From Onchidella celtica (taxonomy: Eukaryota > Mollusca > Gastropoda > Systellommatophora > Onchidiidae): DNA of 64,000 nt. Numbering within the stretch: position 1 is the stretch's first letter; each line of letters begins with the position of its first letter. Shown piece after piece: positions 3,603 to 53,900 of this stretch. Made by a program: the position numbers and the translations under genes. The notes beneath the pieces were generated by a model. It did not search any database, was not told the origin of the DNA, and saw only the letters and a program-made list of their open reading frames with translations. The stretch spans positions 35,280,084 through 35,344,083 of the forward strand of contig OZ007570.1 in assembly GCA_963931925.1 (NCBI GenBank). The letters are read 5' to 3'.

Positions 3603-6600
3603 ATGACGTCATTTGACGAGCTAGTGGCGGAAGAATATGTCCCCACTGATCGACCTATGAAAATTGGACGGTACACGCTGGGTGCTGTCATTGGAGAAGG
3701 AAAAAGCAGCATAGTGCGAAAAGGTGTTAGAGAAGGGGACAAAAAGAGAGTAAGTAGATGGAGGCCGCGGGGTAGCAATAGGAGAGCAACAGAGTAGTCG
3801 GGAAGGCCTTCCTGATCCCGGGTGCAAGCTGAAAGAAGGGCCCAAATTAAGAAAATAATTTGTTGTTGTTGTTGTTTTACTGGAAACATGTCTATGCCAT
3901 ACATTTTTATACTGTCGTACGGTTGCCCTTAAGCTCCGTGGACCTTTTGAGTGAAGATGCCCATCTTTCATACAACGGTTTCTCAGGCTAAAATCTCAAA
4001 CCATGTCACAAGGTCGATTATTCGGTAATACAGTTTGTGAGTTTTTAATACTCTACATCTTACGAGAGGCAGAACAAAAATTTATTTAAGATGCTGAAGC
4101 TTGCATTTGAAAACACATAAATTATATACCTAGACAAGTACGCTAACTTATTTCGCAACACACGAATATATTTTTAGTGTCTGATAAAAAAAAAAATAAT
4201 CCTCACGATGAAAGACTTTCACTTAACATGAGATTACAATATTGCATTTATTCTTGTATTTTGTTTTCTTTATCTGCCCCCTTCTGTCGTCCTCATTTAA
4301 AGTTAAACAGTAGACAACATTCATTTGACAGGTTGCCGTCAAGGTGCTAAACAAACTGGTTGGCCATCTTGGGACTTTGATACAGCTGCAGTTTCAACAG
4401 GAAGTGGAGGCACTGCGCCGAATCAATCATGATAACGTGGTCAGGATGCATGAGTATTTACACAGTCAACGTCGATTTTACATTGTGCTTGACCTTCTCT
4501 CGGGGGCTCTACTCTCTCATTATGTAAGCAGAAGGTAATTGTTCTCATTCTCACATACTCTTTATGATAGATATACGTGTGTTATCAATTGTTTTTGAGA
4601 AATGAAGAGTCAGCTTATTCATTGAAATTGAATATGAAGTATACAGTATAACGGATAGCGTTATGCTGCCGAGTTATAGAAAATGCCCATTTATGCCCAA
4701 AACAAAATATGGGTGGATCTGATAAAACCAGGCTAAAGGTGAAATTTTTATACGTCTTTCAAAAAAAAAATCGAAATAAAAAATTTCTAAAAGGATTTCA
4801 AGAAAACAATTTTAACTGAATGCAGAGAAATGGCTAATCTTTCATACTATACGCAAATATAAATTGCCGTAGAGAAATTTCCTCTCTTTGGAGGGATTTT
4901 TTCGGGAATTTGGTTTTTCACCTAAGCCCAAGATCCACCCACAAATCGTCTCTGCAGGATTCTAAACGGCTAACTCGGTTTTGGTAAATTGTACAGGAGA
5001 GTGAAAAAACTGAAAAGCAAGGTTACTATACACATTTTGGAGCTGGGAATTGGTACTGATACTAAAAATATTTCCGATTACATATCCAGGGCTTATTTTA
5101 TTTATAGGATGTGTCATGTGATGTCACTCTTAATTCCGGGAAAAAAACAGCACACTGAATTTTTAGAGTTAGCCGTTTAGAATCCTGCGGCGACGAAATG
5201 TTTCATGAGAGGCCACAAATATCTGGCTTTGGGCTCAGTTTTATTCTTTGTTCAATTTCCATTTTGTAATGATCAAAAAGAAAGCACCAAAATTATGACC
5301 CAGGTGAGTCATGTCCCTCTATAAAGGGATGTAAAAGCCCAAAGCTGACCTACATTAGTAAACGGTCTCCTACCGCACCACGGCAGTATAGTTCTTCGAC
5401 TAAATTTATTAATTTCATTAGTAATGTCATATCACTGGATCTGGGCAATTGTCAGCACATAGGGCCTACCATAGTCTGTTTGAGATAATCAGAAATTATT
5501 TGGATCCTGACAGGGTTGGATAAACAAAAATGCGTCAGTGTTCTACCAGAGGGGCAGATAATAATGCTCGAGGTGCGGCAAGTTTGATGGTACGCGGAAG
5601 ATTGGCACAGCATCAAATTAAGCAAATAGTATTAGAATCGATGTCTCCGTGTTAAAGTGGTGCTTTAGAAGCGTTTAGTCTGACTGCTAAGCAAAGATTC
5701 TCAACCAGTGAGCTATTTAATTAGGATACCTTTAACTTTCAAGTTAATTTAAAATACAGAATAATGAACTAGAAAAAAGGGTAACTTTGCACAAATAAAT
5801 CCGTCTTTAATGTTGGAAGATTAACCTCGTGGCCACGTAGGCTAAGTCCGCGGATAATAATAATAATAATAATAATAAATATAATTTCTATAGCGCATTT
5901 CTAATAAAATTATTACTCAATGCGCTGTACATTGCATCAATAACTCATGCATACACTTTCCAAATCTCATACTAAAACACGATTAGTGGATACACTTACC
6001 GAGGGTATTTGCCATATTGTTGTATGCGACATTTTGCTGATTTTGAGGTTTTGTCATGAAAGTCGTTCTCTCACTCTTAATTTCATTGTGTAAAAGTGTC
6101 ATACGTGTGTATTTTTCATGGGCATTTTTATGCATGTTTCAATTTTGAAGGGTATTGAACATAAACCTGATTTTACACAAATCTTCAAACTTTCAATCCT
6201 CATTTTCTCGAAAAGACAAAAATGTACATACAGCAATATGGGAAATACCCGACGGAGTAGGTCTGTTGATGGCAACTTTTGTTTTGTTTTGTTTAGTTGA
6301 TGTTCTGCGCTAGAGATGAATAAGATAATTGGTCAGTAAAATGATGAGTAAGAACTGCCTTCAAATGCGACTACAGGTTATACTTAGCTGTTAGCAGGTA
6401 GGAGACATCCTGTCGTAACAGTCTATAGTGTCACCGGCACTGTAGAATAATTCTATTTATTAGCCTACCGTTACATCCAACTATATGAACGGCATTTGGT
6501 TTTGAGTGAAATCCACTCATGAAAGGAAAATGAAAGAGTATAATAGGCTGAAATAATTGCAACAAAATTATATTATACTGTATTTTTATCCACAGAGGTG

Positions 6601-11764: not shown

Positions 11765-14196
11765 ATAATAATAATAATGGATGGCATTTATATAGCGCAT
11801 ATCCATTACAAAAATGCTCTATGCGCTTTACAGAAACATGTCAAAAAATACATGGGTAAACTCACACACACAACCCACATTGATACACACATAATAATAA
11901 TAATAATAGATAGCTTTTACATAGACTAGAAACTCTCATACAAATGACATTTTAACATCCTTTTAAACTGTGAAAATACTTGCGAACTGCGGACATCTAA
12001 AGGAATCTCATTCCACACCCTGGGCCCAACATGGCTGAAAGCCCTTTCACCAAAACTTTTTAGGTTCACTACGGGTACTTTTAGTCTAAGGTTGTCAGAA
12101 GATGATCTTAATGCTCTTGCAGGGCGATGCAGTTCTATAAGTTCTGAAATATACTCTGGCGACATGTTGTTGACACATTTATAACAAAATAAAGCCAATT
12201 TATATTTTATTCGCTGCTCAATAGGTAGCCAGTGGAGCTCCTTAAATATTGGTGTTATGTGATCTATCCTTTTTCTTCTTGTTATTAGTCTTGCAGCATT
12301 ATTTTGGATTAACTGAAGCTTATTGATTTTACTTTTTGGAAGACCACTTAGCAGTATGTTACAATAGTCCAGCCTAGAGAGAAACAGCGATGTTACAAGC
12401 TGTTTTGTTACTTCAGTAGTTAGGCAGTGCCGTATACTGCTGATTTTCCGTAACTGGAAATTAAGATTCTTACACAGCTGACTAATAAATGGTGACATTG
12501 ACATCTCTGCATCTAAGATTGTGCCCAGATCTTTTACTTTACTTGTCATTTTAATAAGATGGCCATTTACATTGAGATCTGGTGGATTGATTTTTTGTTT
12601 TGGATTCGTTATGAGCATAACTTCTGTTTTCTCATCATTTAGTTTTAGCTTATTATCATCCATCCATTTCTTAACTTCTTGTATGCAATGCTCCATTGTT
12701 TTTATCGTATCATCTAGGTTTTCAAGATCACATGCTTTATATATTTGGCTATCATCAGCATATTGGTGGTATTGAAGATCATATTTTCTGAAAATATCAG
12801 CAAGAGGTTGGGTGTATAATGTGAAAAGAATTGGGCCCAAAACAGAACCTTGAGGTACCCCAAAATTGAGTGTTTGGACATTAGAACAACTATCATTGAC
12901 TCTCACACATTGTTTTCTATTTGAAAGATAGGACTGAAACCATGACAGTGCATTTCCTGCAATACCAAAGGTCTTTTCTAGACGATGTAATAGAATGTTA
13001 TGATCTAAAGTATCAAAGGCAGCAGACAAGTCCAGAAGTACAAGAATACATACTCTTTTGTTATCGAGCTCTAGAAGAATATCATTCACTACTCTGAGGA
13101 TAGCAGTCTCAGTACTGTGGCCCTTTTTGTATGCCGACTGGAATATCTCATTCAAGTTATTTATTTCAATGTGCTCCATGATTTGCCTCAACGCTGATTT
13201 TTCAAGGATCTTGGACACAATTGGTAAGTTTGACACAGGCCTATAATTTTTCACATTGTTTACGTCGAGCCCAGCTTTTTTGGTCAAAGGTTTTACAATT
13301 GCCTGTTTGAAAGAATCTGGTACAACACCAGTTCTCAGAGAAACATTGATTACATGAGTAATGGATGGCAATAACTCATCAAGATATAATTTCACAAATG
13401 TCATCGGAAATGGGTCTAATTCACATGATTTGGATGGTGAGTTTTTGATAAGATCTTTAATCTCAGTCTCAGACAACATCTGGAAATCAGTCAATTTCCT
13501 GCCTTCAAAAACACATAGTTCAGGTAATAAATTGGTAACATTGTTAAAATTAGATCTGATACGTTCAATTTTTTCATAAAAATACAATGAAAACATTTCA
13601 CATAAGTCTTTATGGTCACCCTGTGGAAAAACCGAACTTGTTTCTTTCCCCAAAAGTTTGTCAGAGAGCAGAAAAAGATCTCTACACGTTTTAACACTGC
13701 TAAATTTTTGGATAAAATAACCCCGTTTGAGTTTCTGAATCAATTTTACAACATTGTTTTTACTTTCTTTGAAAATGTCACTGTGAACTTGCAATTCCGA
13801 TTTCCTCCATCGCCGTTCATCTTGGCGTCTTTTACGTTTTAATTCCTTAATTTCAAGGGCGAACTATGGTGACCATGGTCGATGTGATACTGTCCTTGGT
13901 GTTACCGGAGCATGTTGGTCTAATGTTGTTTTTAGAGCAACATTGAAGTTTTCCATTGTCATGTTGTTTGCTGCCTGATTCAAGTTTTTTTTTAGATCAT
14001 GTCTGAAATCCGTCTCGTTGATGTTCTTTAAGTTCCTGGATTCAAACGTTTTCTTTATCGTCAGAGGTTTAGGAAAATTAGTGTCAATAGTTATCAAGAA
14101 ATGATCTGAAATAGCTTTATCAAGAATGTTGACACTTAAAATGTTCATTTCTGATAATGGTGCAATGACATAGTCCAAAATATGGTTGGATTTATG
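11765..14196 (-). mobile_element. CR1-like LINE, 5'-truncated, inserted in the piggyBac-type element
   Basis: On the minus strand the reading frame runs from 14178 to 11926 with one internal TAG (13864-13866, in a context where TGG would be expected). It starts inside the endonuclease (LDYVIAP, later the conserved SDHFLI) and includes a full reverse transcriptase: FQSAYKKGHSTETA, LLDLSAAFDTLDH, GVPQGSVLGP and YADD. The C-terminal region ends RVWNEIPLDVRSS. RT style fits the CR1/L2 group. The 3' end has GCGC-rich blocks and (AAT)n tracts; the tail unit appears twice (near 11890 and 11765). Comparison with the empty site in the 27.9-kb copy fixes the breakpoints; no target duplication is evident. 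Confidence 0.85.
11926..13794 (-). CDS. LINE reverse transcriptase ORF, 622 codons after the TAG
   Basis: This is the uninterrupted part of the CR1-like pol frame, counted from an internal Met. The frame really begins upstream and is broken once at 13864-13866. Residues about 95-330 hold the RT palm and fingers, with catalytic YADD. The rest is the C-terminal domain shared by CR1-group LINEs (HWLPIEQRIKYKLALF). With the 5' part missing, this copy should be immobile. Confidence 0.85.
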   Translation of the reverse strand: MQVHSDIFKESKNNVVKLIQKLKRGYFIQKFSSVKTCRDLFLLSDKLLGKETSSVFPQGDHKDLCEMFSLYFYEKIERIRSNFNNVTNLLPELCVFEGRKLTDFQMLSETEIKDLIKNSPSKSCELDPFPMTFVKLYLDELLPSITHVINVSLRTGVVPDSFKQAIVKPLTKKAGLDVNNVKNYRPVSNLPIVSKILEKSALRQIMEHIEINNLNEIFQSAYKKGHSTETAILRVVNDILLELDNKRVCILVLLDLSAAFDTLDHNILLHRLEKTFGIAGNALSWFQSYLSNRKQCVRVNDSCSNVQTLNFGVPQGSVLGPILFTLYTQPLADIFRKYDLQYHQYADDSQIYKACDLENLDDTIKTMEHCIQEVKKWMDDNKLKLNDEKTEVMLITNPKQKINPPDLNVNGHLIKMTSKVKDLGTILDAEMSMSPFISQLCKNLNFQLRKISSIRHCLTTEVTKQLVTSLFLSRLDYCNILLSGLPKSKINKLQLIQNNAARLITRRKRIDHITPIFKELHWLPIEQRIKYKLALFCYKCVNNMSPEYISELIELHRPARALRSSSDNLRLKVPVVNLKSFGERAFSHVGPRVWNEIPLDVRSSQVFSQFKRMLKCHLYESF

Positions 14197-21000: not shown

Positions 21001-24000
21001 TTATTTAAGCAATCATTTACAGGTTAAAACAATGAAAGATATGCACAAAAGGGTCATTAAATATTTTAAAAGCGCACCACCTAATTACAGAAAATAAGAA
21101 TTGAGAATGCATGAAAAATATTTTTCACAACTTTGAGAAATGAAATATGCGCACATAGCTCAACAAACTTTGTCACAGTCTAACAGGTAGTCTTTCAGTG
21201 ACCACCTATAATATGAAATAACTTACCTCCATAAATGGCACACAGCCCAAACCACATCCTTCTCTCAATACTCCTTCTTTGACAGGATGTTTTTTGTCCA
21301 GTTTATCCCCCAAATTATCAATGTATTCAAGAACTGCCGCTCTTGCAGCAAGCACCTCTTCTCTGTCGTGGAACCTTCGAATCAGAAGATACCTAAGAAA
21401 AACACAACACACATGAAAATGGCATACTTACATGGTCCATTACTCTAAGTAAGAAACAGGTCTCCAATATGATTTATGAATCAGAGAGCAGCAGGGGCAG
21501 ACCAAAATAGTTTGCACTGGAATCCCAGGCAAAAGACACACAACATGTGACAAGTTATGTGCTAGTTTCAGAAATATGTAATCCAATCACTGGTTCCGTT
21601 CCAATGTATTTATACTTCATTAAAAAGTTCTCCCCAATTCCTAAGTTTCCAAATTAACCCTCGTCCCCCATTGAGTGAACTCCTCCACATAACGCCCTGT
21701 GCAGAGATAGCCAGCGGCCAGCCAGCAGATTGTTCGCATACTGCCGATGACCTCAGCGGTCAGGTCAATCAGGTCCTTTTGAACTCATGTATTGTGTTTA
21801 CTTTAGGATACAAGAACAACAATAGTGGTGGATAAATGGTAAGGGACCCCTATGATTTTTGGATAAAGTACTTACAATGAATGGTATCAGTGGGCGTGCA
21901 CCTGTCGGTGCAAACGGCCAGGGCGGAGGAGGTTTCATCTAACCCAACGGCCACATGCTAGGGCACAATGTGACCCTCAGTACTTGAGTCCTTCATATTG
22001 GCCCCCGGTAGCGGTGTGGTCATAGGCTTGTTTGCCTAAATCACAGACGAAGAATTGAGCAAACTTCCCGGACGCAGCTTTGAAGCTGGCGGCAGCAGGC
22101 CAGTGGTTGATTGATAGGGCAGATGGCAATATACCGTCACTCTGGCCTGGATATCGTGACACAGAGCATCCACCAGTATTGGTGTTCTTTGGTTTGGGTC
22201 TTTCACCCTAGTCAGTTGGGACTGCGAGGCTGTGGAGTAGCCTACAGGCAGCCGGTCAGGCAATATGACTGTCCCTCCGGCATCCTCCTGCACCTGGATA
22301 CATTTCCAGTCGTCTTGACCCTGTCTTGCCACTTGGATAAGTTGCGTCCAGGCGAGAGAGTGAGCCTGATGTTTGCGCAGCTCTTTCTCACTAAAAACAA
22401 ATTCTTTGCGCCAGTCTTAACACTCACCTCGTCTTCTTTCATCTTTGTCTCGTCTTCTTTCCTCTCAAAATTCCAACGGCGATGGGCGAGTGCGGTGGCA
22501 GCAGGTTTGGATAGACTGGAAGCTGTTAGCACAGACCTACACGTTGGTGGCTGTGGGCTATGGTCGCTTCATCGTCGATTGAAGTGGAGGCGTGGGGAGG
22601 CAGCACCCACAGTAGCTGAGCAGCCTTATTTAAGGATAGCACTGCTCACCTCAACTGAGGAAGGGGCTAGAAAAGGTGCCCTAAAGAAAGCCCACTTCAC
22701 ATCACCCTGACTGGTATACCGCGACCAGTGGGGATCCCTTTTTGCGGTCGAAACAAAAAGAAATTCAGCTTACTCAGGCTAGGAGCCTGGAATATACGCA
22801 CACTACAGGACAACTCAAACAACCCGGAAAGACGCACTGCACTTATTGCCATTGAGCTCAGCAGGTACAACCTGGACATAGTGGCACTCAGTGAGACCAG
22901 ACTCCCTGATAGTGGCCAACTCAAAGAGCTCAGTGGTGGATACACCTTCTTCTGGAAAGGCAAGGGTGCAGTCGAACCGAGACAGCATGGTGTTGGGTTT
23001 GCAATTAAAAATGACCTTGTCAGAAACTTGCAGTCCATGCCAATTGAAATAAATGACAGGCTAATGACACTCAGGATCCCAGTTGGGAAAAGCCAGTCAG
23101 CCACCCTCATTAGCGCATATGCGCCCACCATGACAAACCCAGATGAAGCCAAAGACAAGTTCTATTCTGATCTAGAATCTGTCATATGCTCTGTCCCGGC
23201 AGCTGATAAGCTGATTCTCTTGGGGGACTTCAATGCTAGGGTTGGCTCAGAAATCTCAGCGTGGCCAAATGTTTTGGGCCCTCATGGAGTTGGTTCATGC
23301 AATAACAATGGGTTGCGCTTACTTACTTTGTGCGCTGAATTTGGCCTGTTCATTACCAACACAAATTTTAGTCTCCCCGTGAGAAACAGAACGTCATGGA
23401 TGCATCCCCGCTCAAAGCATTGGCATCTCATAGACTATGTCATTGTGAGGAAGACTGACAGAAAGGATGTCCTTGTAACAAAGGCGATGTGTGGTGCCGA
23501 GTGTGGAACTGACCACAGACTCATTGTTTGCAAGCTCAGACTAACATTGAGGCCCAATAGACGCCCTCAAGGGAAAGCGCCACCTAAACGCCTAAATGTT
23601 TCAAAACTCTGCTCAGCTGAGAAACAGAGCGAGCTCTCATCAGAACTCTCCTCAAAATTGGATTGCGTGACTTTTGACCCTGAGAACATTGAACAGAGCT
23701 GGACTGACCTAAATACGACTGTACACTCTTGCGCCAGCAGCACAGTTGGTTTTCCTGTCCGCAAGCACCAGGACTGGTTCAATGATAATGATAATGAAAT
23801 CAAAGTGCTCATCAAAGAAAAAAATAGTCTCATCCAAGCTCACTGCAGTGACCCCTCTTCCACAGCAAAAGCTGATGCACTGCGTGCATGTAAGGGTGTA
23901 CTCCAGAAGAAGCTGAGGAAAATGAAAAATGACTGGCTTGAAGAGCGAGTAAGAGAAACTCAGAAATATGCCGACACAAACAACACTAGAAAGTTCTTTG

Positions 24001-27000
24001 AGAGCCTCCGAGCTGTGTTTGGACCATCCCGCTCTGGCACTACGCCACTTCTTGCGTCAGATGGTTCAACACGCATTGTTGAATTGAATGCCATAATTCA
24101 GCGTTGGGCAGAACATTTCGGAGGTGTGCTAAATCGGCCATCAAATATAAATACTGAGTCCATTGACCGCCTCCCTCAGACTCCTATTAATGCAGCTCTT
24201 GCCAAGCCATTCACAGCAAATGAGACCCGAACTGCCACAAATCAGATGTCCTTTAACAAATCACCAGGCGTGGATTCAATTCCTGCTGAGGTGTATGCCT
24301 TCGGTGGAGAAAAGCTTATTGAAAGGTTGACCGAGTTGTTCAATCATATGTTGAAAGCAGGGAAGCTGCCACAGGACTTCAAAGATGCTTCAATCATCCA
24401 TCTGTACAAAAACAAAGGGGACAGCCAAGTCTGTGACAACCATCGGGGAATCTCTCTACTTTCAATTGCTGGCAAAATATTGGCAAGAATGCTTCTGAAT
24501 CGCCTTCTTGATCACCTCTCGTCAAATGACTTGCTTCCCGAGAGCCAATGTGGCTTTCGTAAAGAGAGGGGAACGGCGGATATGATTTTTGCTGCCAGAC
24601 AGATTCAGGAAAAATGCATGGAACAAAATAAAGCGCTGTATATCACATTTGTTGACCTCACAAAAGCATTTGACACAGTGTGTCGTGAAGGCCTCTGGAA
24701 AATCTTGGCGAAGTTTGGGTGTCCACCCGAATTCATCACAATAGTGCGCCAGTTTCATGATGGCATGCAAGCTGCAGTCAAAAGCAACGGCAGTGTTTCA
24801 GAGCCCTTTGCTGTCACAAATGGGGTAAAACAGGGTTGTGTCTTAGCCCCAACTCTGTTCAGCATCATGTTCTCTGCAATGCTACAAGAAGCCTTTAGCT
24901 CTCCTCCTCAAGGGGTAAGCATCAAGTACCGAACTGATGGCAGTCTATTCAACCTCAGGAGACTTCAGGCAAAAACCAAAACCAAAAGTACTCAAGTCTG
25001 TGACCTACTATTTGCTGATGATTGTGCACTTCTGGCACATGATGAGGATAGCATGCAAAACTGTGTTGATAAGTTCTCTAGTGCCTGTGACAACTTTGGC
25101 CTCACAATAAGCACAAAGAAGACGGAAGTGCTCCATCAGCCTACTCCAGACGACAAGTATCCTGTGACCCCAAATATCAAAGTCCATGACAGTCTTCTGA
25201 AGGTGTCGGAGAACTTCACCTATCTTGGCAGTACACTGTCTTCCGCGGCTCGTGTTGATACTGAAATTCTCTCAAGAATCAGCAAAGCCAGCTCTGCATT
25301 TGGCAGGCTTCGAAAGAGAGTATGGGATGTTGCCGGCATTCGCACAGACACTAAGCTGAAAGTGTACAATGCTGTGGTCCTTCCCACCCTACTCTATGGG
25401 GCTGAAACCTGGACAGTGTACCAATCGCATGCCAGAAAGCTAAATCACTTTCATCTGGCCTGCCTTAGAAAGATCCTAAGGATCAAATGGCAGGATAAAA
25501 TTCCAGACACTGAGGTCCTCAATCGTGCCAAGGAATTGAGCATCTTCTGCCACCTGAAAAAAATTCAGCTACGTTGGGCAGGACATGTTGTCAGAATGCC
25601 AGACTCCAGACTCCCTAAGCAAATCTTCTTCTCTGAGCTCTCCAATGGAACGAGGAATGTTGGGGCCCCAAAGAGACGTTACAAAGACACTCTCAAGCAA
25701 TCACTGAAGGCCTTTGCCATTGATGTGAGTGAGTGGGAAAAGCTCTCGCTTGATCGAGCAAATTGGAGGGCGGCCCTTACCAGAGGCAGCAAAGCATGGG
25801 AAGCTGACAGAGTCCAGCAGGCTATCAAAAAAAGAGAACGGCGCAAGAAAAGGCCCAGTGGTACTGAACCAACGGAGCACTCTTGTCATTTATGCGGAAA
25901 GGTCTGCAGGGCAAAAATAGGACTTATCAGTCACATGAGAAGCCATAAGTCATGAAAGAACAGTCTTTCCATTCTGTCCTCTGTGTCCTTTAGTTCTCTT
26001 TATTGTCCATGTGTTGAAATTCTCAACAATTTCTGTTCTTTATTCCTCTGGTGTTGTTAAGGTCATCATCATACCTGATGGACGAACTATTATTATTATT
26101 ATTACTTATAATGAGATGCAATAAGTTCTATTGCTAAATGAAAAGCCCATAATCAAGAATTTTCTGCATTTACATACTGTTTAACAAACATTTTTTTCCT
26201 TTTCCCAAGAGGTCAGCACTTTTTTAATCTCTAAGTCAGGCCATTCAGGTGTGTCACAAATCCCAGACTGGGAGATGTAATAAGTATGACAGGACAACAA
26301 TCACGAACAAACAAGTTTAACACTTAACCGAACAGCCCATCAGACTCACACATTTATTAACCATAATTATACATATAATAGCGCAATTACATACATTATA
26401 TTATTGAAATGCACTGCCGTACAACGGCCTTATTCTCACACACACTCTCCCTCGGATCCACAATCCGGTAGTTACTCCTAAAGGCACTTCGGCCTCAGCC
26501 TCTCCCCTCAGGGTCTTAACAACACATTAGTAATTTACTGGCACCGCAGTCTCTCAATATCACCTTCCTATTATCATACACCTTAGCACTCCCCTAGCAC
26601 CTCAGCAGGGCAATAACACATTATTATTTCCATAGCCATCAACATGGCAACAACATAATATCAGTTCACTAGCCTATCAACATGGCAACACTATAGTATC
26701 TCATTCACTCTCATATCTACGTCCCTGTCCGTGACCTGACTGCCACGACTTTATGTGCCTCTACTGTCCTACACTGACAGCCTCACTTCTGGCCTATGTG
26801 TGGCCGCCGGCCCTATGCTGGCCTATCTCCTGTGCTCATCGAGGTGGCTCTGCGGCCCGTCCCCGACACCTACAAGAATAACATTACATTGGTATAATAC
26901 CCTACCATTTCTATTCACTCCACCTCTCCTTACAATCCATGAAACGTACACACACTAGTTCACCTTTCACTCACCACACATCTTACGGTAACACACCTCC

Positions 27001-42699: not shown

Positions 42700-43420
42700 C
42701 CCATATGTTCACTTCCAAGCCGTTTTTCTCAAAATCAGCTCTGCCGACTTTATGTGGGTTTTCTCAGGCACACTCACAATTGATGTTAGTGATAATTGAG
42801 GATGTTTCCTCATAAAATTTGCATTGAACTCTGTGATTGGAATCTAGGTTTTCAAGCATGAATATGAGCCTACATGCAACATGTGAGAATAAATGCATTT
42901 CTACTTGAAAATCATATTGTCACTGTCAGGTACATGGGTGCCAGATCGCCGGATTTTTCCGGCAATCCGGAATTTCGTTTGTCCCAAACGCGCTCTGCCG
43001 GAATCTCGCCGGGAACGATTGTTTTCTGGATATACCGTTTTTTTTTGTGTCGGATAATTTTTTATTTTTTGGCATTCTTTTTATTCTTTTGGCCACGTCC
43101 GCGGTAATGATCAGGCATGCGCAGAGAAATCAGTAGGCACATTGCTTCCTGTTTCCGGTTTTGTTTTGTTGTGAAAGTGATAGAACGCCGCCATCATCTC
43201 GCTGGCTGGGGGCAAGACCCCGGCAAACGCCATTTTGCAATTTTACAGGAGACACGAAAAACTGATTTATTTTTACAAAAACAATGGTAGCAAAATAAAA
43301 CCTGAATATGTTTTTAACATTTGTTAACTGCATACAAGCACGCCAAATTTAGCTTATTTTGACCTTAAATAAAGAATAAAATCCGAAATGTTGGCACTTG
43401 ATGTTATGTGTCATGTAAGT
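42700..43420. other. Non-genic interval with CCGG-rich palindromic patch
   Basis: Near 42945-43015 there is a cluster of CCGG motifs (GCCGGATTTTTCCGGCAATC and a following GCCGGAATCTCGCCGG) that could fold. No gene is recognised. The patch may be the end of an unknown repeat. Confidence 0.35.
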
Positions 43421-43798
43421 TGGCTTGGTGCAAAAACCCGACAAGGGCTTGTGGTGGTTTTTACCCCACCCAATATAAGGATAACATTGGCCAAAAGCCT
43501 TTGACGTTTTATTGCTCCCAGAGTGAAGAAGAGGAGGGTATTATTACTATTGTAACTAAGAAATATGTCGTATTTTGCATGCAACAGTTATAGTTGGCTG
43601 GTTAGTTGTTTTGTTTGCACATTCGACCATAGTATGGTCCATACGCAGTGATTGTCAGGAGTCCAAGGCCTCCATCAGGCCAAAGGATGGGCTGCTTGGG
43701 TTATATCCTATTTACATCACCAGGAGCTTCAGCAGAGCAACAATGTTAGGTACAACTTTGTAGTAAGGATGTTAATCTATACTGGCTGTAGAACTAAA

Positions 43799-43905
43799 CG
43801 AAAGGGAGAGAGAAAGAGAGAGGATGAAAGTGGGGGGGGGGAAGATAAAAAGAGAGAGAGAAGGGGTTGAGAGAGAAGAGAAAAGAGAGAGAGAGAGAGA
43901 CTCAG
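43799..43905 (+). repeat. GAGA-rich microsatellite
   Basis: Purine-rich simple sequence (GAGAGA units with one G9-type run) inside the left part of the DNA transposon. Short frames over it are artefacts. Confidence 0.8.
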
Positions 43906-43914
43906 TGAGACATA

Positions 43915-44235
43915 CATGATACATACATGAAGGCTCCAAGGGAAGAAGGAGATAATCACACGGAGACAATTTAAACATGTCTCCCATTCGTTTCATAGTA
44001 ACACAAGGCCCTACTTTTGTGTGGAAAGTTGTTTTATCAGATGGGAAAGCAACAGCTACAAAAGATTAACTGTTACAGTACTTTCCAAGATAGACTATCT
44101 GTGAACAGTGTATGTGTCCGTTGTATCTTACAAATGCTCAAGGAAGCTCGCATATATCTTATTATGATGAGGGGAAACTACTTAAAATGTCCCAGTGTGA
44201 CTTACCTCCTTCTCCCTCTGAAGTCTTCACAGACA
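43915..44235. repeat. Imperfect inverted repeat within the transposon
   Basis: A 60-70-bp arm at about 43925-43992 (GGGAAGAAGGAGATAATCAC...) is inversely similar, roughly 75%, to 44165-44232 (GTGACTTACCTCCTTCTCCC...). CATACAT repeats lie beside each arm. It may be a small element inserted in the large transposon. Confidence 0.4.
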
Positions 44236-44913
44236 TACATAACATACATACAGACAAAAAGACAGACAGACAGAGAAAGAGCGGACAGGGAAAGATGACA
44301 AAGTGAAGAAATTCTGAGACGGCCACAGTTTAATTGGTCTTGCATGAAGAATGCCAACTTTCTGAAGTTCATTAAGTCAAACTTTACTGAATCATTTCGA
44401 TTATTTTGATAACTGTAAATAAATTGTAATAATGCGTTGACTTAAGGCCCATCAATTACAAAGCAACTAAAGAAATTAATTTTGATATGTAAGCCGATGC
44501 AGCTGGGATAAACATTGTTTAAACATGCTAGAATAAAAGACAAACAACATGATTTGAATCATCAACAAACGAATGGTAAATCGTAACCGTACAGTCTAAA
44601 AGACAGCTTTGTGACATCGTACTTTAGAAACTTTAAAAGTTGCCATGCCACATACAGCAAAAACTGAAGAAAGAGGGAAATAAAAAGGAAACCATAGTGA
44701 AAAAGAATAAAAATGAATCGAGGTTTTTGATTAATTTGAAGCATTACAAATTAATTAGCGTATTTTAATGTTAGCGTTTTTTTCGTGTTTATGTTTCTTT
44801 GGTTGTTTTCTTGTGACCTAAAGCAATTAATTATATTATTCAGCTGTCAAGACATTAATCTTTTCATAAGAGGATAGTCAAACAAAAATACACAGATTCC
44901 AGGGACGCTTGAT

Positions 44914-47433
44914 CTAGGGATCTTCTTGCTCAACCAGGGAATCACCGATGGGGAGAGAGTCATAGAATTGTCTGTAACTGGATGGTATTTGTCCAGCATT
45001 ACAGAGACTGATGAGATCTCTCTTCTTGGCCTCGACAATGCCAGGCCTTACCATTCCCTTCTGTATTCTCACTTCACTTGCATCTACACCATCTCCACTT
45101 TTTCTTTTCCGCCTATTTAAGTCAAGGCGCTGAGACGGACCCGAGTAGCTGGTTTTGATGTGGAGCGCGTTTGGGTCGCCTGCCACTGCTGACACTTCTC
45201 TAACTTTGCTCCACATAACCTTCTCCCCTTCATCATCAACAGATAGATTTCTCACTGAACTTGCCATGGCCTTAAAGTCAATAAAGTCTCCAGACGTCAT
45301 TTCCTTGACAACGTATGGCTGTTTTGAACATCTGGCTGTCCGAACAGCAGCATACCATTGTTCCGGAGTGTAGAGCTCAGTGTACCGAGTCCGCCGTTCA
45401 ATGGTTGCATGGACAGAATCGTTTTCTGTTTCTGTGTGTCCCTTTTCCAGGAAACTGTGTATGATGCTTTTTAGATTTAAATTTGTCCGCGCAAAGTGCA
45501 AGGCAAAAGCAACAAATCTGTTACGGTTCTGGCCAGCACAATTGTCTGAAAACATGTGCAGCTCGTTGACTCCCTCTCTGCTTCTGTCCTCAATATAGTT
45601 ATAAAGACAGGTGGCCACCTCGTTAGATCCTCTGCTGCCTTCGTGCTCTGGCCACATGAAGCAAAACGCATCTCCGTGTTTGTAATCATAAACAGTCAGG
45701 TTGTACACCCCAAGTCTTCTTTTATAGTAAAAACTGGAACTGTGACCATGAGGACACAGGAGGATCTGCTGTAAGTCAAAAGCACAGCTTGTTTTTGTAG
45801 GTGACTGTGAGTCTGCTTTAGCCTGGTCTTTGATACGTCTGGCTGTTATCTTATTCTCCAGATGATTTTTGAAGAGCAACTCATTTTCTTCAGTGGGCTT
45901 CTGGTTGTGTTTGTGAGCAATGCACGTTTCACATTGGTCCTTTTTTGGCCTGTGGAAAGCCAAATTAAAATCATAATCAAAGATTTTTCTGTATTTGTTT
46001 TCTGTCGCTTTCGCGCTTCCATTTTTATCACACATAGCAGTGTATAGCCGATACATTTTTGTCACAGATAGCGATGGATCGAGGTACTTTTTTTCAGAGT
46101 CTGCTCGGCAGTAATGCGAATCAACATGCGGGAAGGATGCAATATGGTCTTTAACACCTTGAATAGTGCTTTCCTCGATCTTTTTCTGATTGCCATGTTT
46201 CCCTTGTCTTGACGTTTTCAGGCCACCAGTGCCAGAGACTTGCTCCAAGGTGTTGTATATAAAGTCGCGTCGAACATCAAGTGTATTTAGAAAGAAGGTT
46301 CTGCAGACCTGTACTCTGGATTTCTGAGCATAAAGAAAGTACCGAAAAGTCACGTTGCGCTTTTCTGATCCGACTCTCTTTCTCTTTACAGGGCATCGCT
46401 CAATGTGTCTCAGAATAAAATGTTTTTGTTCTCTTTTATCTGCATACGCCCAAAAAGCATTAAAGATCGATTCTCTGTCACTCTCATTAAACTTCGCAGA
46501 GCACTTCAGAGCACAAGAAGAGTTACAACAAGGTCCTATCTTCCGAGCTGCCTTTTCCTTCCCTGTTGCAGAGATGTATGGCTGTCCAGAATTTCTCAGG
46601 CACTTTTGGATGTTCCTTTTCCAATCTTCAGGGTTCCTCATTCGTTTTCTTCCCCTCACTGGTCGATCTCCTTCTTGTCCTTCTCCTCCCTTTTGTCTCT
46701 CTCCTCCCTCTTCTCCTTCTCCTCTCTCCTGACTCTCTCCTTCCTCTTCTCCTCCTCTCTCCTGACTCTCTCCTTCTCCTCTCTCCTGACTCTCTCCTTC
46801 TCCTCTCTCCTGACTCTCTCCTTCCTCTGGTTCTCTTCTCTCCTGTCTCTCTCTTTCCTCTGGTCCTTCTCTCTCCTGTCTCTCCTCGCTCTCTGCTCCT
46901 TCCCCTCTCACCTGCCGCTCTACTTCAGCAGCTGTACCTCTGATATCCGACAGTTCTCCTCCATCAGATGGTTCATTTTTCCTCTGGACCTCTAAGTCTT
47001 TCTGTTTCTTCTCTGATTTTCTCTGGGCTGTCCTATGCTTTTCTTTCTTTTTGTCAACCTTTCCGTGATCCTCGCAGGATCTCACATCCTCAATGCAATG
47101 GTCATAGCAGACCAGTATATCGCAATTCTCACACGCTGCCCAGACCTCTTCTCTACAGTGCTTAACTTCACAGAGCCCTGGCTTGAAATCGGGGTCAGCG
47201 TCCGAGTCGTCAAGTCGCTCGTCTTCAGAACTGAGTTCTGGCATGGGTGAGGATGTAGCCCTCAGATTAGCAAGGGGTTCGTCTTCACTGCTCATTTTGT
47301 TGTCCTTGAGTCTAGCTAAAGGTATATCGTCTTCATCATCACTTTCTCCATACGAATGGGTTAGTGCCTGCCGGGTCTGACTAGGTGCTTCTTCCATCGT
47401 TTCCTGTTTAAAAGCAATAATTATGCAAAACAT
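44914..47433 (-). CDS. DDE-type transposase-like protein, 839 codons, intact
   Basis: The frame is open throughout. The likely start is M13 (47397), because TTTTAAACAG just before it looks like a 3' splice site. Parts in order: an acidic N-terminus; a Cys/His cluster (C88, C93, C101, C104, C109, H112, C113, C120, H123), probably zinc-binding; a charged Glu/Arg repeat region (about 180-255, units GESQERGE); a basic stretch RGRKRMR; a second Cys group (302-311); and a catalytic-type core with D553 (CAFDLQQ), D630 (SDNCAGQNRNR) and the FLEKGHTETENDSVHATIE block (D672, E679). This Asp/Asp/Asp-Glu order and the DNC-GQN motif are seen in uncharacterised transposase-like proteins of invertebrates. 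It presumably cuts and joins the element ends. Domestication is possible but the inverted repeats around it argue for a mobile element. Confidence 0.8.
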   Translation of the reverse strand: MFCIIIAFKQETMEEAPSQTRQALTHSYGESDDEDDIPLARLKDNKMSSEDEPLANLRATSSPMPELSSEDERLDDSDADPDFKPGLCEVKHCREEVWAACENCDILVCYDHCIEDVRSCEDHGKVDKKKEKHRTAQRKSEKKQKDLEVQRKNEPSDGGELSDIRGTAAEVERQVRGEGAESEERQEREGPEERERQERREPEEGESQERGEGESQERGEGESQERGGEEEGESQERGEGEEGGERQKGGEGQEGDRPVRGRKRMRNPEDWKRNIQKCLRNSGQPYISATGKEKAARKIGPCCNSSCALKCSAKFNESDRESIFNAFWAYADKREQKHFILRHIERCPVKRKRVGSEKRNVTFRYFLYAQKSRVQVCRTFFLNTLDVRRDFIYNTLEQVSGTGGLKTSRQGKHGNQKKIEESTIQGVKDHIASFPHVDSHYCRADSEKKYLDPSLSVTKMYRLYTAMCDKNGSAKATENKYRKIFDYDFNLAFHRPKKDQCETCIAHKHNQKPTEENELLFKNHLENKITARRIKDQAKADSQSPTKTSCAFDLQQILLCPHGHSSSFYYKRRLGVYNLTVYDYKHGDAFCFMWPEHEGSRGSNEVATCLYNYIEDRSREGVNELHMFSDNCAGQNRNRFVAFALHFARTNLNLKSIIHSFLEKGHTETENDSVHATIERRTRYTELYTPEQWYAAVRTARCSKQPYVVKEMTSGDFIDFKAMASSVRNLSVDDEGEKVMWSKVREVSAVAGDPNALHIKTSYSGPSQRLDLNRRKRKSGDGVDASEVRIQKGMVRPGIVEAKKRDLISLCNAGQIPSSYRQFYDSLPIGDSLVEQEDP
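46713..46870 (-). repeat. Coding minisatellite in the transposase
   Basis: Repeats of about 24-33 bp based on CTCTCTCCTGACTCTCTCCT on the plus strand encode the Glu/Arg-rich GESQERGE units on the minus strand. All units keep the frame. The opposite strand gives long Leu/Ser-rich frames (46355-46995) that are artefacts. Confidence 0.8.
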
Positions 47434-48413
47434 AGCTATTTATTGTTATATTACCCTTTCTCTGGTTCAACTAACAAAATGTAGGTCGAAAGCAAGGCCT
47501 AATAATGTTGTCCAAATTCAGTCATTAAGCAATTCACGGCGTAAAGTAGGAGATCGAAAATACAACAGTACTGCTTCAGAAAGTTACTTCATGCACTATA
47601 ATATTGTCGGGTTTTACTTCATTAAATAAAGCTACTATTTGCTTGTTAAGCCTATTCGTTACCAAAATGGAATGAGTTAGGTAATTTTCCAAATATAGCT
47701 TCGTTTTTTGGCTAAGTAAAAGATTTAAATAAAAAATCAACACCGTACTTGTTTCTTGCAGATGTAGAAAGCTAACTATGGGAACAAATAGCTTGTAAAG
47801 GCACCGCATGAGATTTTGACATGATCGCTCAGAAATTTGACGGAAAGCACAAAATCGGCTAACTGTAAGTTTAATTGCATTGCACCTTCTAATTTGGATG
47901 AAAAAAAAGCACCTGTTTTCGATAATAAAATTTGTCATGGACGTGTTTCCATGTCAGAATTTGTTTTTATTTACCCAGGGTGACTGCTACTTTATGCAGT
48001 TTATAAAAGCATTATTGAGTATATTAATTATAAGAACATAGAAAAGCATCTTTTTCTACTTACTGACCTGTTTGGTGGCAACCACGTGTCAGCAGCTGAG
48101 GGTGTTCTTGCGGTAAACAAGAGGAAAGAGCCCAACGTGCCAGTTTTCATGGCATTGGTATTCAAAGAAAAAACATTCCCACAGTACCGAAAAGCGACAC
48201 TGTTACATTTTAATACGTTTTGCCTAGTGACATTCTTAACCAGGTTTGGTGCAATAAAACGACATGAGCTCATGACGGAATTATACACAAATAAAATTTA
48301 AGCAAAAACCCGTCAAGGGCCCTTGGCGGTTTTTGATGCGATTTTTTTTTGTATCGATACTGTCTGTTTTTAGCAACTTCGGTTCTATTTATTATAGAGA
48401 GCTCATCTTTTGA

Positions 48414-48635
48414 CACAACCTCGGCGATTACTTTTATATCGATTCCAGCTATAAAAACGATTTTCCGAAAATTGGCGCTTGTCGGGTTCTTGCACCCAGC
48501 CAGCGATCTGTATCTTCATTAAAACCAACAGCTTCAACATCAGCCTCACATCCTGCTTTCTCTGTTTCAAGGAAGAGAAAGCAATGTGGTGGTGGACAAA
48601 CACTGTCCATCACAAAATTTTTCAAGAAAATGTAA
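48414..48635 (+). CDS. Candidate terminal exon ending in a PIP-box-like motif
   Basis: An open frame that may begin after a TTCCAG acceptor at 48448 and ends at TAA 48633-48635. Its C-terminus is a Ser/Thr-rich stretch, then RKRKQ, then TLSITKFFKKM. TxxIxxFF followed by Lys resembles the PCNA-binding PIP box (QxxhxxFF, with Thr in place of Gln), as at the C-termini of p21-type inhibitors and replication or repair proteins. The right inverted repeat of the DNA transposon (48474-48502) overlaps its first half, so either the transposon interrupted this exon or the frame is chance. No upstream exons were found. Confidence 0.25.
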   Translation, partial: HNLGDYFYIDSSYKNDFPKIGACRVLAPSQRSVSSLKPTASTSASHPAFSVSRKRKQCGGGQTLSITKFFKKM

Positions 48636-50949: not shown

Positions 50950-53900
50950 TCAGGAAACAATAGGCTGGTGTGCACTGTCTTGGATGCACTGTTCAGCTTT
51001 TCCAACCAAATAACCATACAAAAACAATGCTCTGTCTCTCACATTTCGGTTTTTGTCTTTTATGCACATCTCCATTAATTTTGCTAGTGGCAACTGAATT
51101 TTGGCTGGGTTCTCTAGACAAAGCTCTGTCATGGCACCTAGTAAGCTCATCTTCAATTTTTGTTGACCATTGTCATCATAAAGTCTCTGTTGTTTAGGAT
51201 GCTGTTGCTGAAATTCTTCTTCGTCATCCTGTTGTTTCTCCAATTCACACATCATTTCTTCCAAAATCTCCGGTGCATTATCAAGCAATGTGCTGTGGGA
51301 TCTGATGATTTCTAATAGAGCAGTTTTCCCTGGCGTGGACTGGATTTGCTGATTACAATCACACAAACAAGGGGCCAACACCTTCCAAAGACTCTCATCT
51401 GATAATGTAACGGATGGCAGAATCTGAGATGAGAATAAAAGTAAAACAAGTAAGCCAGTGAAACACAATGCATACAATTGTCTACATCATTAACATACAT
51501 GTATATAACCAGTAACACAAAAATGACAGGTGATTCAAGGGCAAATTAGGGTTGGAAATTAAATTACTGACAATTTTCACTGTCCGTTAAACACATGTTG
51601 TATGTATTGTTTTAAACTGGACAGAAAACTCGAATTAAACAATACAAATTTATGTACTTCACTGGACAAACAATATTTATTAGGCTCGTGATTATTAAAG
51701 AATGGATCTTGAATTATCTGAATTATAAGTATAATATTAATAAATGGTACATGTACATGTATGTATTTCAGTAGAACTCGAGTTTTTGTTTACACCATGC
51801 CCAGGAAAGAAAGTGTCCAATCACAATACTAAATACTGTACATGTATTATTTTCATAAACGAAATTCTAAAACAGCTGAAAGAAATCACATTAAAAATAC
51901 ATATTACATACATGATTGTATGTACTAAATCTGAATCCATGCAACTTAAACAGATGAACTGTTGGTTGTTGGCTCTGTGCCCAAAGGTTAAATTCAGTAT
52001 TCAGGCCTGAGGTAGACAATAGCTGCTGAAAAATGTGCCGTGTTTAATCTAAATGAAAGTTAATGCCACAGGAGAAAATGCTGGTGAAACATAAAAATTC
52101 AAATACACACATGTACATCTTTCAACGAGTCAAAATACATGTATCATTTTAACCCAATAAGGTTTCATCACTTTTCAACCAATCATCCTTTCATCTTTTT
52201 AAAAAATGTTTTTTATGTCAGTGAAAATAGTGAAAACAGTAACTGGAATTAACAATGATGCAAATTTCACAAAGCAATCACTTTTTGAAATGACTGATTC
52301 TTTTTGTTGTTGTAAATTCCACTTAAAAAGCAGAAATTGTGTGTTTCACAACTTATCTAGGAATGTCAGACACAAAAAATTCATGTTTAAATTTATCCTA
52401 CCTGTACTACACACTCCAAAATAGATGAGTTGCCAAACTGAAGGAGTCTTCTAAGAAAATCAACATAAGATTTCTCCATCTCAGGTTTTGCTGATATCCC
52501 ATCTGTCACACTTTCAACCATGTCTCTCAGAGCACTTAAGTCCAAATATCTGGCACCTCTCACAAGCTCTTCAAAAATAATTTCCACATTGTCAGGACTG
52601 ATTAACCTTGACAGCATCCTGATTTTCTGTTTCACCAAGTAAATGCTGTCATCATCACGACAGAAAAATTTATTGTAATCCTGTGCACAAACACTGACTG
52701 GGAAGTCTGTAGTGCTCAAGTAGTCCAATACTGTTGTGACCATCTCTTCACTTCGCTGTTGGGCCAAATTTCTTTTTATAGCAGTCCAGGCAGTTGTGTA
52801 TGTTTTAAGTTTTATCTTTGGTAAATCCGCACTCAAATGGCAGAATAATTCAAGGGCAGACAGTGTTGTAGCCAGTGAAGTACTTTTTGTCAAGCTTTCA
52901 TCTAAGTCATTTAGATGATCAAACACTTGAGATTTAGTTTTGGGTGAATGTTTCAATAAGAATTGAATTACAAATCTTTGGACTACTGGAGTGAATGATG
53001 GTATGTTACTGACAAGATGCTGACCCAGCTTGTTAGAAACTACTACCCCACTTTCTTTGGCAAAAATGTCTTCCAAAGCACACAAACAGCTTGCAACAGT
53101 TGCAGAATCTGAATCACTCAGATGACTATACAACAAATCCCATACACCTCCCTCTGTAACGCTTGTAGGTGAAACCTGGTGAAGGGCTGTTGTTGCCAGT
53201 GCAGCATGTTGTCTAACAGATGGGGAGCTATCTTCCAGTCCCCTTATGATTGCTGTATTTAACATCTCTGCGGCAGATGGAGACTGCAAAGAACTGAGAG
53301 CTCGTAAGCCATGGCCACGCACAACTGGATTGATGTCTTTGCAGTCCTGCACCAGAGTGTTAGTTGCTAGTAAGACCATCTCTGGATTTTTTTCTGCATG
53401 TCCAGCTATCAGTTCTCCTGCCACCCTCTTGACAAAGGTATCACTATGCGCTAGAAGCTTCACAATGGTCGGTAGGGCTGGGGTCATATCACATCCATTT
53501 GTTGCAAGTGTTAAGATCTAAAAAGACAAAATACAATATCATGAATTAACTTGAATGAATTGACAATAAAGACTTTTTGAATGCTGGTGCTGTAGCAGAA
53601 ACACAGTGAGCCCTGGATCCTTCATCAGGAGTCCTTCTTTGGGGATCAGGCAATCAGGTTATTGGAACACATTACATTACCTTGATCACATGACACGACA
53701 CTGAGAAACCCCAGAGAACTTGTAAACCTAATCTTATACCTAACCCAGCTCCTTACATTTAAAAAACACAGCTCTGGAGAGTCTGTAAAGGACTGTAAAA
53801 GATCAAGTCACAAGTACTTGGGATCTACGAAACTTTTATCGATCAATATACTGGTCACTGCAAAGACAGTGGCCAGTTCCGACATCACATTATAAATGCA

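Follow-up and report, generated by a model that had tools for sequence, protein, structure and literature searches.

The locus considered here raises the question of what kind of genetic element encloses a large, uninterrupted reading frame between inverted repeats in the genome of the onchidiid gastropod Onchidella celtica. The window analysed is a stretch of 64,000 nucleotides (GenBank assembly GCA_963931925.1, contig OZ007570.1, positions 35,280,084 to 35,344,083 of the forward strand), and coordinates given without a contig refer to it. A sequence-only reading had proposed an intact DNA transposon whose DDE transposase could be placed in no named superfamily. The first part of this proposal holds: shared tips, target duplications and empty sites identify the element at 43200–48505 as a complete copy of a DNA transposon, and its protein shows constraint between families. 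Its family has very likely been mobile very recently, most likely joins the Sola2 group as a new family, and would encode a transposase with three catalytic aspartates (DDD) and the Pfam domain DUF7869 in its core.

The extent of the element is defined by its copies. It measures 5,306 bp (5,308 bp if the T and A of the flanking duplication are counted in), with the gene on the minus strand. In the 1.14 Gb genome examined, ten full-length copies are distributed over nine contigs; exactly the same terminal bases are found in all ten, and their flanks are unrelated. The remaining nine align with the window copy from end to end at 99.0–99.7% (query, the 5,308-bp stretch 43199–48506), so that very recent activity of the family is probable. 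The element is bounded by terminal inverted repeats (TIRs) of about 37 bp at 87% identity, with identical outermost 10 bases. The left TIR, which lies at the element's 3′ end when read in the direction of the gene, occupies 43200–43236 with the tip CGCTGGCTGGGGGCAAGACCC; the right TIR, the 5′ end, occupies 48469–48505 with the tip CGCTGGCTGGGTGCAAGAACCCGACAAGCGC. Both belong to a longer outer inverted pair, 43199–43236 and 48469–48506 (38 nt, 87%). The ends had earlier been set at 43421 and 48502. The inverted match behind them is real (43421–43448 with 48475–48502; 28 nt, 89%) and its right partner is the true right TIR. Position 43421 is not the left tip, because the match there pairs the right TIR with a left subterminal copy of the same motif, and all ten copies end at the outer pair. 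The absence of a second copy sharing these ends had been named as a sign of a host gene; nine more full copies are present, with the left end about 221 bp further out.

Additional searches delimit the family. The protein search of the genome gave at least 55 scored matches, two of which together make up a single broken copy on C3. Searches with the ends returned the same ten copies and a 58% identical relative on C11 (L011), together with fragments on C3 (at 46.8 Mb and at 38.6 Mb) and a small number of short, weak hits. When up to 3 mismatches are allowed, the tip pattern has 32 matches genome-wide, of which the tips of the ten full copies account for 20, the interrupted copy at C3:46.8 Mb for two and the L011 relative for one. 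The remaining nine are isolated and weak, with 3 mismatches each, and a reversed-pattern control gave 7 matches. The full open frame is kept in seven of the ten copies; of the other three, the first is interrupted by an in-frame TGA, the second opens only at residue 9 and the third is split in two. Such loss of the frame might also be seen in an old gene family, and would suit a single-copy host gene that happens to lie near inverted repeats. That explanation is refuted by ten identical-ended copies in unrelated flanks together with the duplications and empty sites described next, which exclude chance repeats, and its probability is negligible.

The target was read from 35 insertion sites in five families: ten of the window element, 14 of a family with a 1014-codon frame, three of a family with a 1021-codon frame, one of the 58% relative and seven of a divergent 3,794-bp DUF7869 family. 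Thirty-two sites are readable; L041 (right tip beyond the 91-base piece), L038 (tips without an exact match) and L083 (left tip beyond the 51-base piece) were left uncounted. A 4-bp ANNT is duplicated at all 32, and the narrower form AWWT at 25. In the window the duplication is ATCT, read directly at 43196–43199 on the left and present at 48506–48509 on the right. Sites take the form A-NN-[TCG...CGA]-NN-T, and in the divergent family ANNT stands directly beside GTGAGCC tips. A 2-bp NN duplication with TCG..CGA tips was the first reading, and was dropped for the invariant A and T. The 4-bp ANNT is the better reading, because these bases flank 25 of 25 sites. The inner dinucleotide varies (TT, CA, TC, GA, AA, AT, TA). 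Among the targets of the window element the preceding base is C in 8/10 and the following base G in 9/10, giving a CATATG-like site; over the wider set of 25 sites, C precedes ANNT 13 times and G follows it 16 times.

Empty sites complete this picture. When the joined flanks of the ten copies were searched, intact empty sites were found for two insertions. The target of the L029 copy is intact at three loci (all 178 bases, 100%), and that of the L026 copy is full length, with no length change, at 14 loci or more (at least 14; 97–99%); the one locus read for each contains a single ANNT. For the other eight joined sites no full-length empty site was present among the best 40 of 1301 candidates, and no clean empty site was found for the window copy's own insertion. 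The window element itself sits in another repeat (flanks 43100–43199 and 48506–48600). Three related repeats (C14:43.84 Mb, C6:49.38 Mb and C1:39.00 Mb) have about 200 bp extra at the window insertion point; the sequence of one of the three was read.

The gene lies in a minus-strand frame, 44914–47439, that is uninterrupted over 841 codons from stop to stop, as had been claimed for its 839 codons from the first Met. The likelier Met gives 827 amino acids plus stop (44914–47397), and the in-frame upstream Met begins at 47433. The sole Pfam match of the protein at E values up to 1 is DUF7869 (PF25273), over residues 574–709 (45271–45678, minus strand; E 4e-9). Three aspartates are candidate catalytic residues, all with codons on the minus strand: D541 in FDLQ (45775–45777), invariant in 4/4 aligned families; D618 in SDNCAGQN (45544–45546), Asp in all 12 sequences that cover it; and D660 in a GH-x5-D arrangement (45418–45420), Asp in 13/13 relatives. 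H654 is invariant along with them in the four aligned families. The 13-sequence comparison includes nine sequences from further DUF7869 matches of the genome, which do not cover D541, and L012, with an in-frame stop, was omitted from alignment A1. The triad is most likely DDD and not DDE, because D660 is kept throughout while the alternative third residue, E667, is Lys in six of the 13 relatives, some of these six being closely related to each other.

The two Cys/His clusters reported from the letters alone are present: residues 76–111 (47065–47172, minus strand) form a cluster with weak likeness to the AN1 finger 1wys (E 0.015), and a second cluster, C291/C295/C299 (46501–46527, minus strand), is invariant in 4/4 families. 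A Glu/Arg-rich linker is encoded by a tandem 33/36-bp repeat at 46667–46914 on the minus strand. This repeat had been called expanding; the tandem array is there, but its 91-residue block has the same length in all six readable copies (L002–L006, L008). Between families the transposase has been under constraint, since the comparison with the 58% relative gives a proportion of synonymous differences (pS) of 0.864, which is saturated, against a nonsynonymous proportion (pN) of 0.272 over 779 codons.

Sola2 is a known but little-studied group, and the proposal that the element fits no named superfamily is probably wrong. Among published Sola2 elements of two amoebae, the transposase of one has 888 amino acids and the duplications are 4-bp, AT-rich and of AWWT type, such as ATAT, AAAT and ATTT (PMC3627910). 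These are Sola2-Fanzor elements of Dictyostelium fasciculatum and Polysphondylium pallidum, with TIRs of 12–21 bp (PMC3627910). The window element shares with these a 4-bp AT-rich A..T duplication, a single large transposase (827 amino acids here, 888 there) and TIRs. The likeness may extend to the catalytic residues. Sola transposases are said to have been described as DDD enzymes by Bao et al. in 2009, and conservation points to the same triad here. A new Sola2 family is the preferred reading because the duplication, transposase size and DDD residues fit. There are also differences. The TIRs are about 37 bp long here rather than 12–21 bp; the subterminal palindromes described below are related to them; and the duplications also include ATCT and AGAT, with ACAT in sister families. 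A Fanzor-like second frame is missing: no second frame of at least 200 codons was seen inside the window element, except one overlapping antisense frame.

Two other placements have to be set against a Sola2 family. In the first, the DUF7869 elements would form a distinct, unnamed superfamily that converged on the same ANNT target. DUF7869 has no function in Pfam and is the one Pfam match available, and a literature search for its name found no paper. Like the window protein, further DUF7869 matches of the genome share D618, D660 and the GQN motif, and the window protein adds the N-terminal Cys/His cluster and the Glu/Arg-rich linker. The duplication and transposase size nevertheless fit published Sola2 elements (PMC3627910). 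The very divergent 3,794-bp family, moreover, keeps AWWT at all six readable sites of the seven examined. The DDD residues, too, agree with what is reported for Sola. The window element is probably not the founder of a new superfamily, and convergence of an unnamed one is clearly unlikely.

In the second, the element would belong to another named superfamily with short duplications, that is Tc1/mariner, Kolobok or piggyBac, Chapaev/CMC, or Academ. Chapaev elements also make 4-bp duplications, and a weak match to Transp_Tc5_C (E 0.014, below the cut-off) occurs in the 58% relative. As far as is known, each of these superfamilies has its own Pfam model, and at E values up to 1 the window protein matches DUF7869 and none of them. 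Tc1/mariner is further opposed by the variable inner dinucleotide, which leaves no fixed TA, and by the lack of any mariner-type Pfam match. Kolobok and piggyBac duplicate TTAA, with 3–5 bp in the KolobokP branch (PMC9587614). This range would accommodate the element, but TTAA occurs at 0/32 readable sites, and the long terminal direct repeats of KolobokP were not seen in the window element. DUF1280, given as the Chapaev domain in another account (PMC3985635), has no match in the window protein, nor has any CACTA-type domain. Membership of any of these superfamilies is very improbable.

The ends of the element carry more than the TIRs. A motif, GCAARAACCCGNCAAGSGC, starts 14 bp from each tip, the 3′ copy with 3 mismatches, and recurs in two palindromes of the form AAAAACCC-N-CAAGGG, in which it faces a degenerate copy of itself. 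These palindromes occupy 43430–43462, about 230 bp inside the left tip, and 48302–48334, about 171 bp inside the right tip (173–205 on the 5′ side and 5045–5077 on the 3′ side of 5308), and are 85% alike. The degenerate half of each was read by eye and differs in length by one base from the motif. Both had been recognized before, with the left one taken to lie at the tip; it is subterminal, like the right one. Hairpin formation is the less likely role. Predicted paired transposase sites are preferred, because across families the positions are similar, the letters differ and each pair is related to its own TIR.

This layout is best compared with that of two sister families, a 5,255-bp element with the 1014-codon frame and a 4,755-bp element with the 1021-codon frame. 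Both resemble the window element in a 34–36% identical core, TCG..CGA tips, ANNT duplications, a motif near the tips and subterminal pairs. Their own motifs, GTAAACTATGGTAACTC and GTATACTGTCGTAATTC respectively, resemble each other and are unrelated to GCAARAACCCGNCAAGSGC. Each lies 15 bp from each tip (one copy each), with inverted pairs at 182/199–200 on the 5′ side and 273/291 on the 3′ side, counted from the respective tip, and more copies between. With up to 4 mismatches, own-motif matches number 3 in the window element, 10 in the 1014-codon family and 8 in the 1021-codon family, whereas 40 first-order resamples average 0.0, 0.05 and 0.2; one copy per family was examined. The motif of the window element was not found in either sister, nor that of the 1014-codon family in the window element. 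A noncoding block of about 33 bp, TCTCCTGTAAAATTTGCAAAA, lies 34 bp inside the 3′ tip (43233–43264; 6171–6203 of L033). Between families whose proteins share 34% identity it reaches 94%, and a block like it can be seen in the 1021-codon family.

The sister families differ from the window element in a second, unexpected respect: a herpesvirus-tegument-type cysteine-protease domain is fused to the N-terminus of their transposase (L033–L040 and sister families elsewhere in the genome). Residues 8–152 of the 1014-codon frame match Herpes_teg_N (PF04843; E 5e-11). The genome has 33 matches to this domain, and by eye, among the matches listed, 19 stand in the same frame as a DUF7869 match, eight lie 1.6–1.9 kb upstream of one on the same strand (27/33 in total) and six have no DUF7869 partner. 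A literature search for this domain name together with transposons found no paper. DUF7869 itself gave 150 scored matches in the genome, the best 150 of 306 candidates, and none in 14 control genomes. Several additional multi-copy families also contain frames with DUF7869 (of 859, 769 and 491 codons, for example), so that the group is large in this host. A more speculative view takes the DUF7869 elements as their own superfamily or a deep Sola2 clade. One branch would then have a conserved end array, with one transposase site per TIR and head-to-head pairs about 170–215 bp from the tip on one side and 221–300 bp on the other, that co-evolves with the transposase. Part of this branch would also carry the fused tegument-like domain as a deubiquitinase, perhaps protecting the transposase from host turnover. 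As a whole this view is rather unlikely.

Several observations weigh against a recently mobile Sola2 family with the properties proposed above. (i) The Sola2 link rests on target duplication, DDD residues and size; 7/32 sites are ANNT but not AWWT. (ii) Three sites (L035, L037, L047) lie within AT repeats, where the duplication may be longer, and filled and empty sites by themselves do not separate a 2-bp duplication with TCG...CGA tips from a 4-bp ANNT with CG...CG tips, the two being written with identical letters. (iii) Copy number is low, at ten full copies and pieces at two places, and no non-autonomous derivatives (miniature inverted-repeat transposable elements) were seen in the tip-pattern search with up to 3 mismatches. 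(iv) Near-identical copies differ by 32 nonsynonymous and 6 synonymous changes, summed over 7 comparisons. Nonsynonymous changes are not depleted, and because the few changes are mostly of this kind, selection is not visible at this level. (v) Single-sequence AlphaFold2 models of residues 520–700 and 246–827 have mean predicted local distance difference test scores of 39 and 33 and are unusable; the strand and helix order of the first looks RNase H-like, and at its score of 39 was given no weight. A profile search against solved structures found no RNase H relative and one weak zinc-finger match (E 0.49), and a scan of viral and prokaryotic contigs gave no relatives to align. (vi) The 58% relative also has a sub-threshold match to Cdc6_C (E 0.002) which, like that to Transp_Tc5_C of Tc5 elements, was given no weight. 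(vii) An ungapped scan matched the end motif in only one half of each palindrome and in the 3′ TIR with its 3 mismatches. The divergent family has no copy of its TIR motif beyond the TIR in about 365 bp on the left and about 240 bp on the right (two copies), so that not all DUF7869 elements share the subterminal-pair layout.

The precise ends, the target rule, insertion into single-copy ANNT, the repeated end motif and the constraint between families are observations, beside which a mechanism can be proposed for a Sola2-type element. (i) The transposase would have an RNase H fold and use D541, D618 and D660 for catalysis. (ii) At either end it would bind GCAARAACCCGNCAAGSGC both in the TIR and in the subterminal palindrome. 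(iii) Bound transposase would bring the ends of the element together. (iv) DDD-catalysed strand transfer, staggered by 4 bases, would then insert the element at ANNT, with CATATG-like sites as the best targets. (v) Excision from the donor would make the reaction one of cut and paste.

The window contains other coding features. A non-long-terminal-repeat (non-LTR) retrotransposon frame at 22671–25955 on the plus strand is open over 1094 codons and has endonuclease and reverse transcriptase domains. A reverse transcriptase frame of 645 codons at 11926–13863 on the minus strand is probably a second non-LTR element. An adaptin-type host gene (52393–53517, minus strand; 374-codon open stretch; Adaptin_N, E 5e-42) lies about 4 kb from the transposon.

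The known picture of DNA transposons is not overturned by this element. Since its copies are near-identical, seven of the ten have an open frame, and both ends and target are defined, it is a practical candidate for an activity assay; we know of no such assay in print for the Sola2-type group, although no search aimed at it was made. The related families illustrate how a transposase and its binding sites may evolve together. For DUF7869 the results suggest a function: the domain very probably contributes to the catalytic core of a DDD transposase of Sola2 type, and therefore genes that bear only the DUF7869 label may be transposons.

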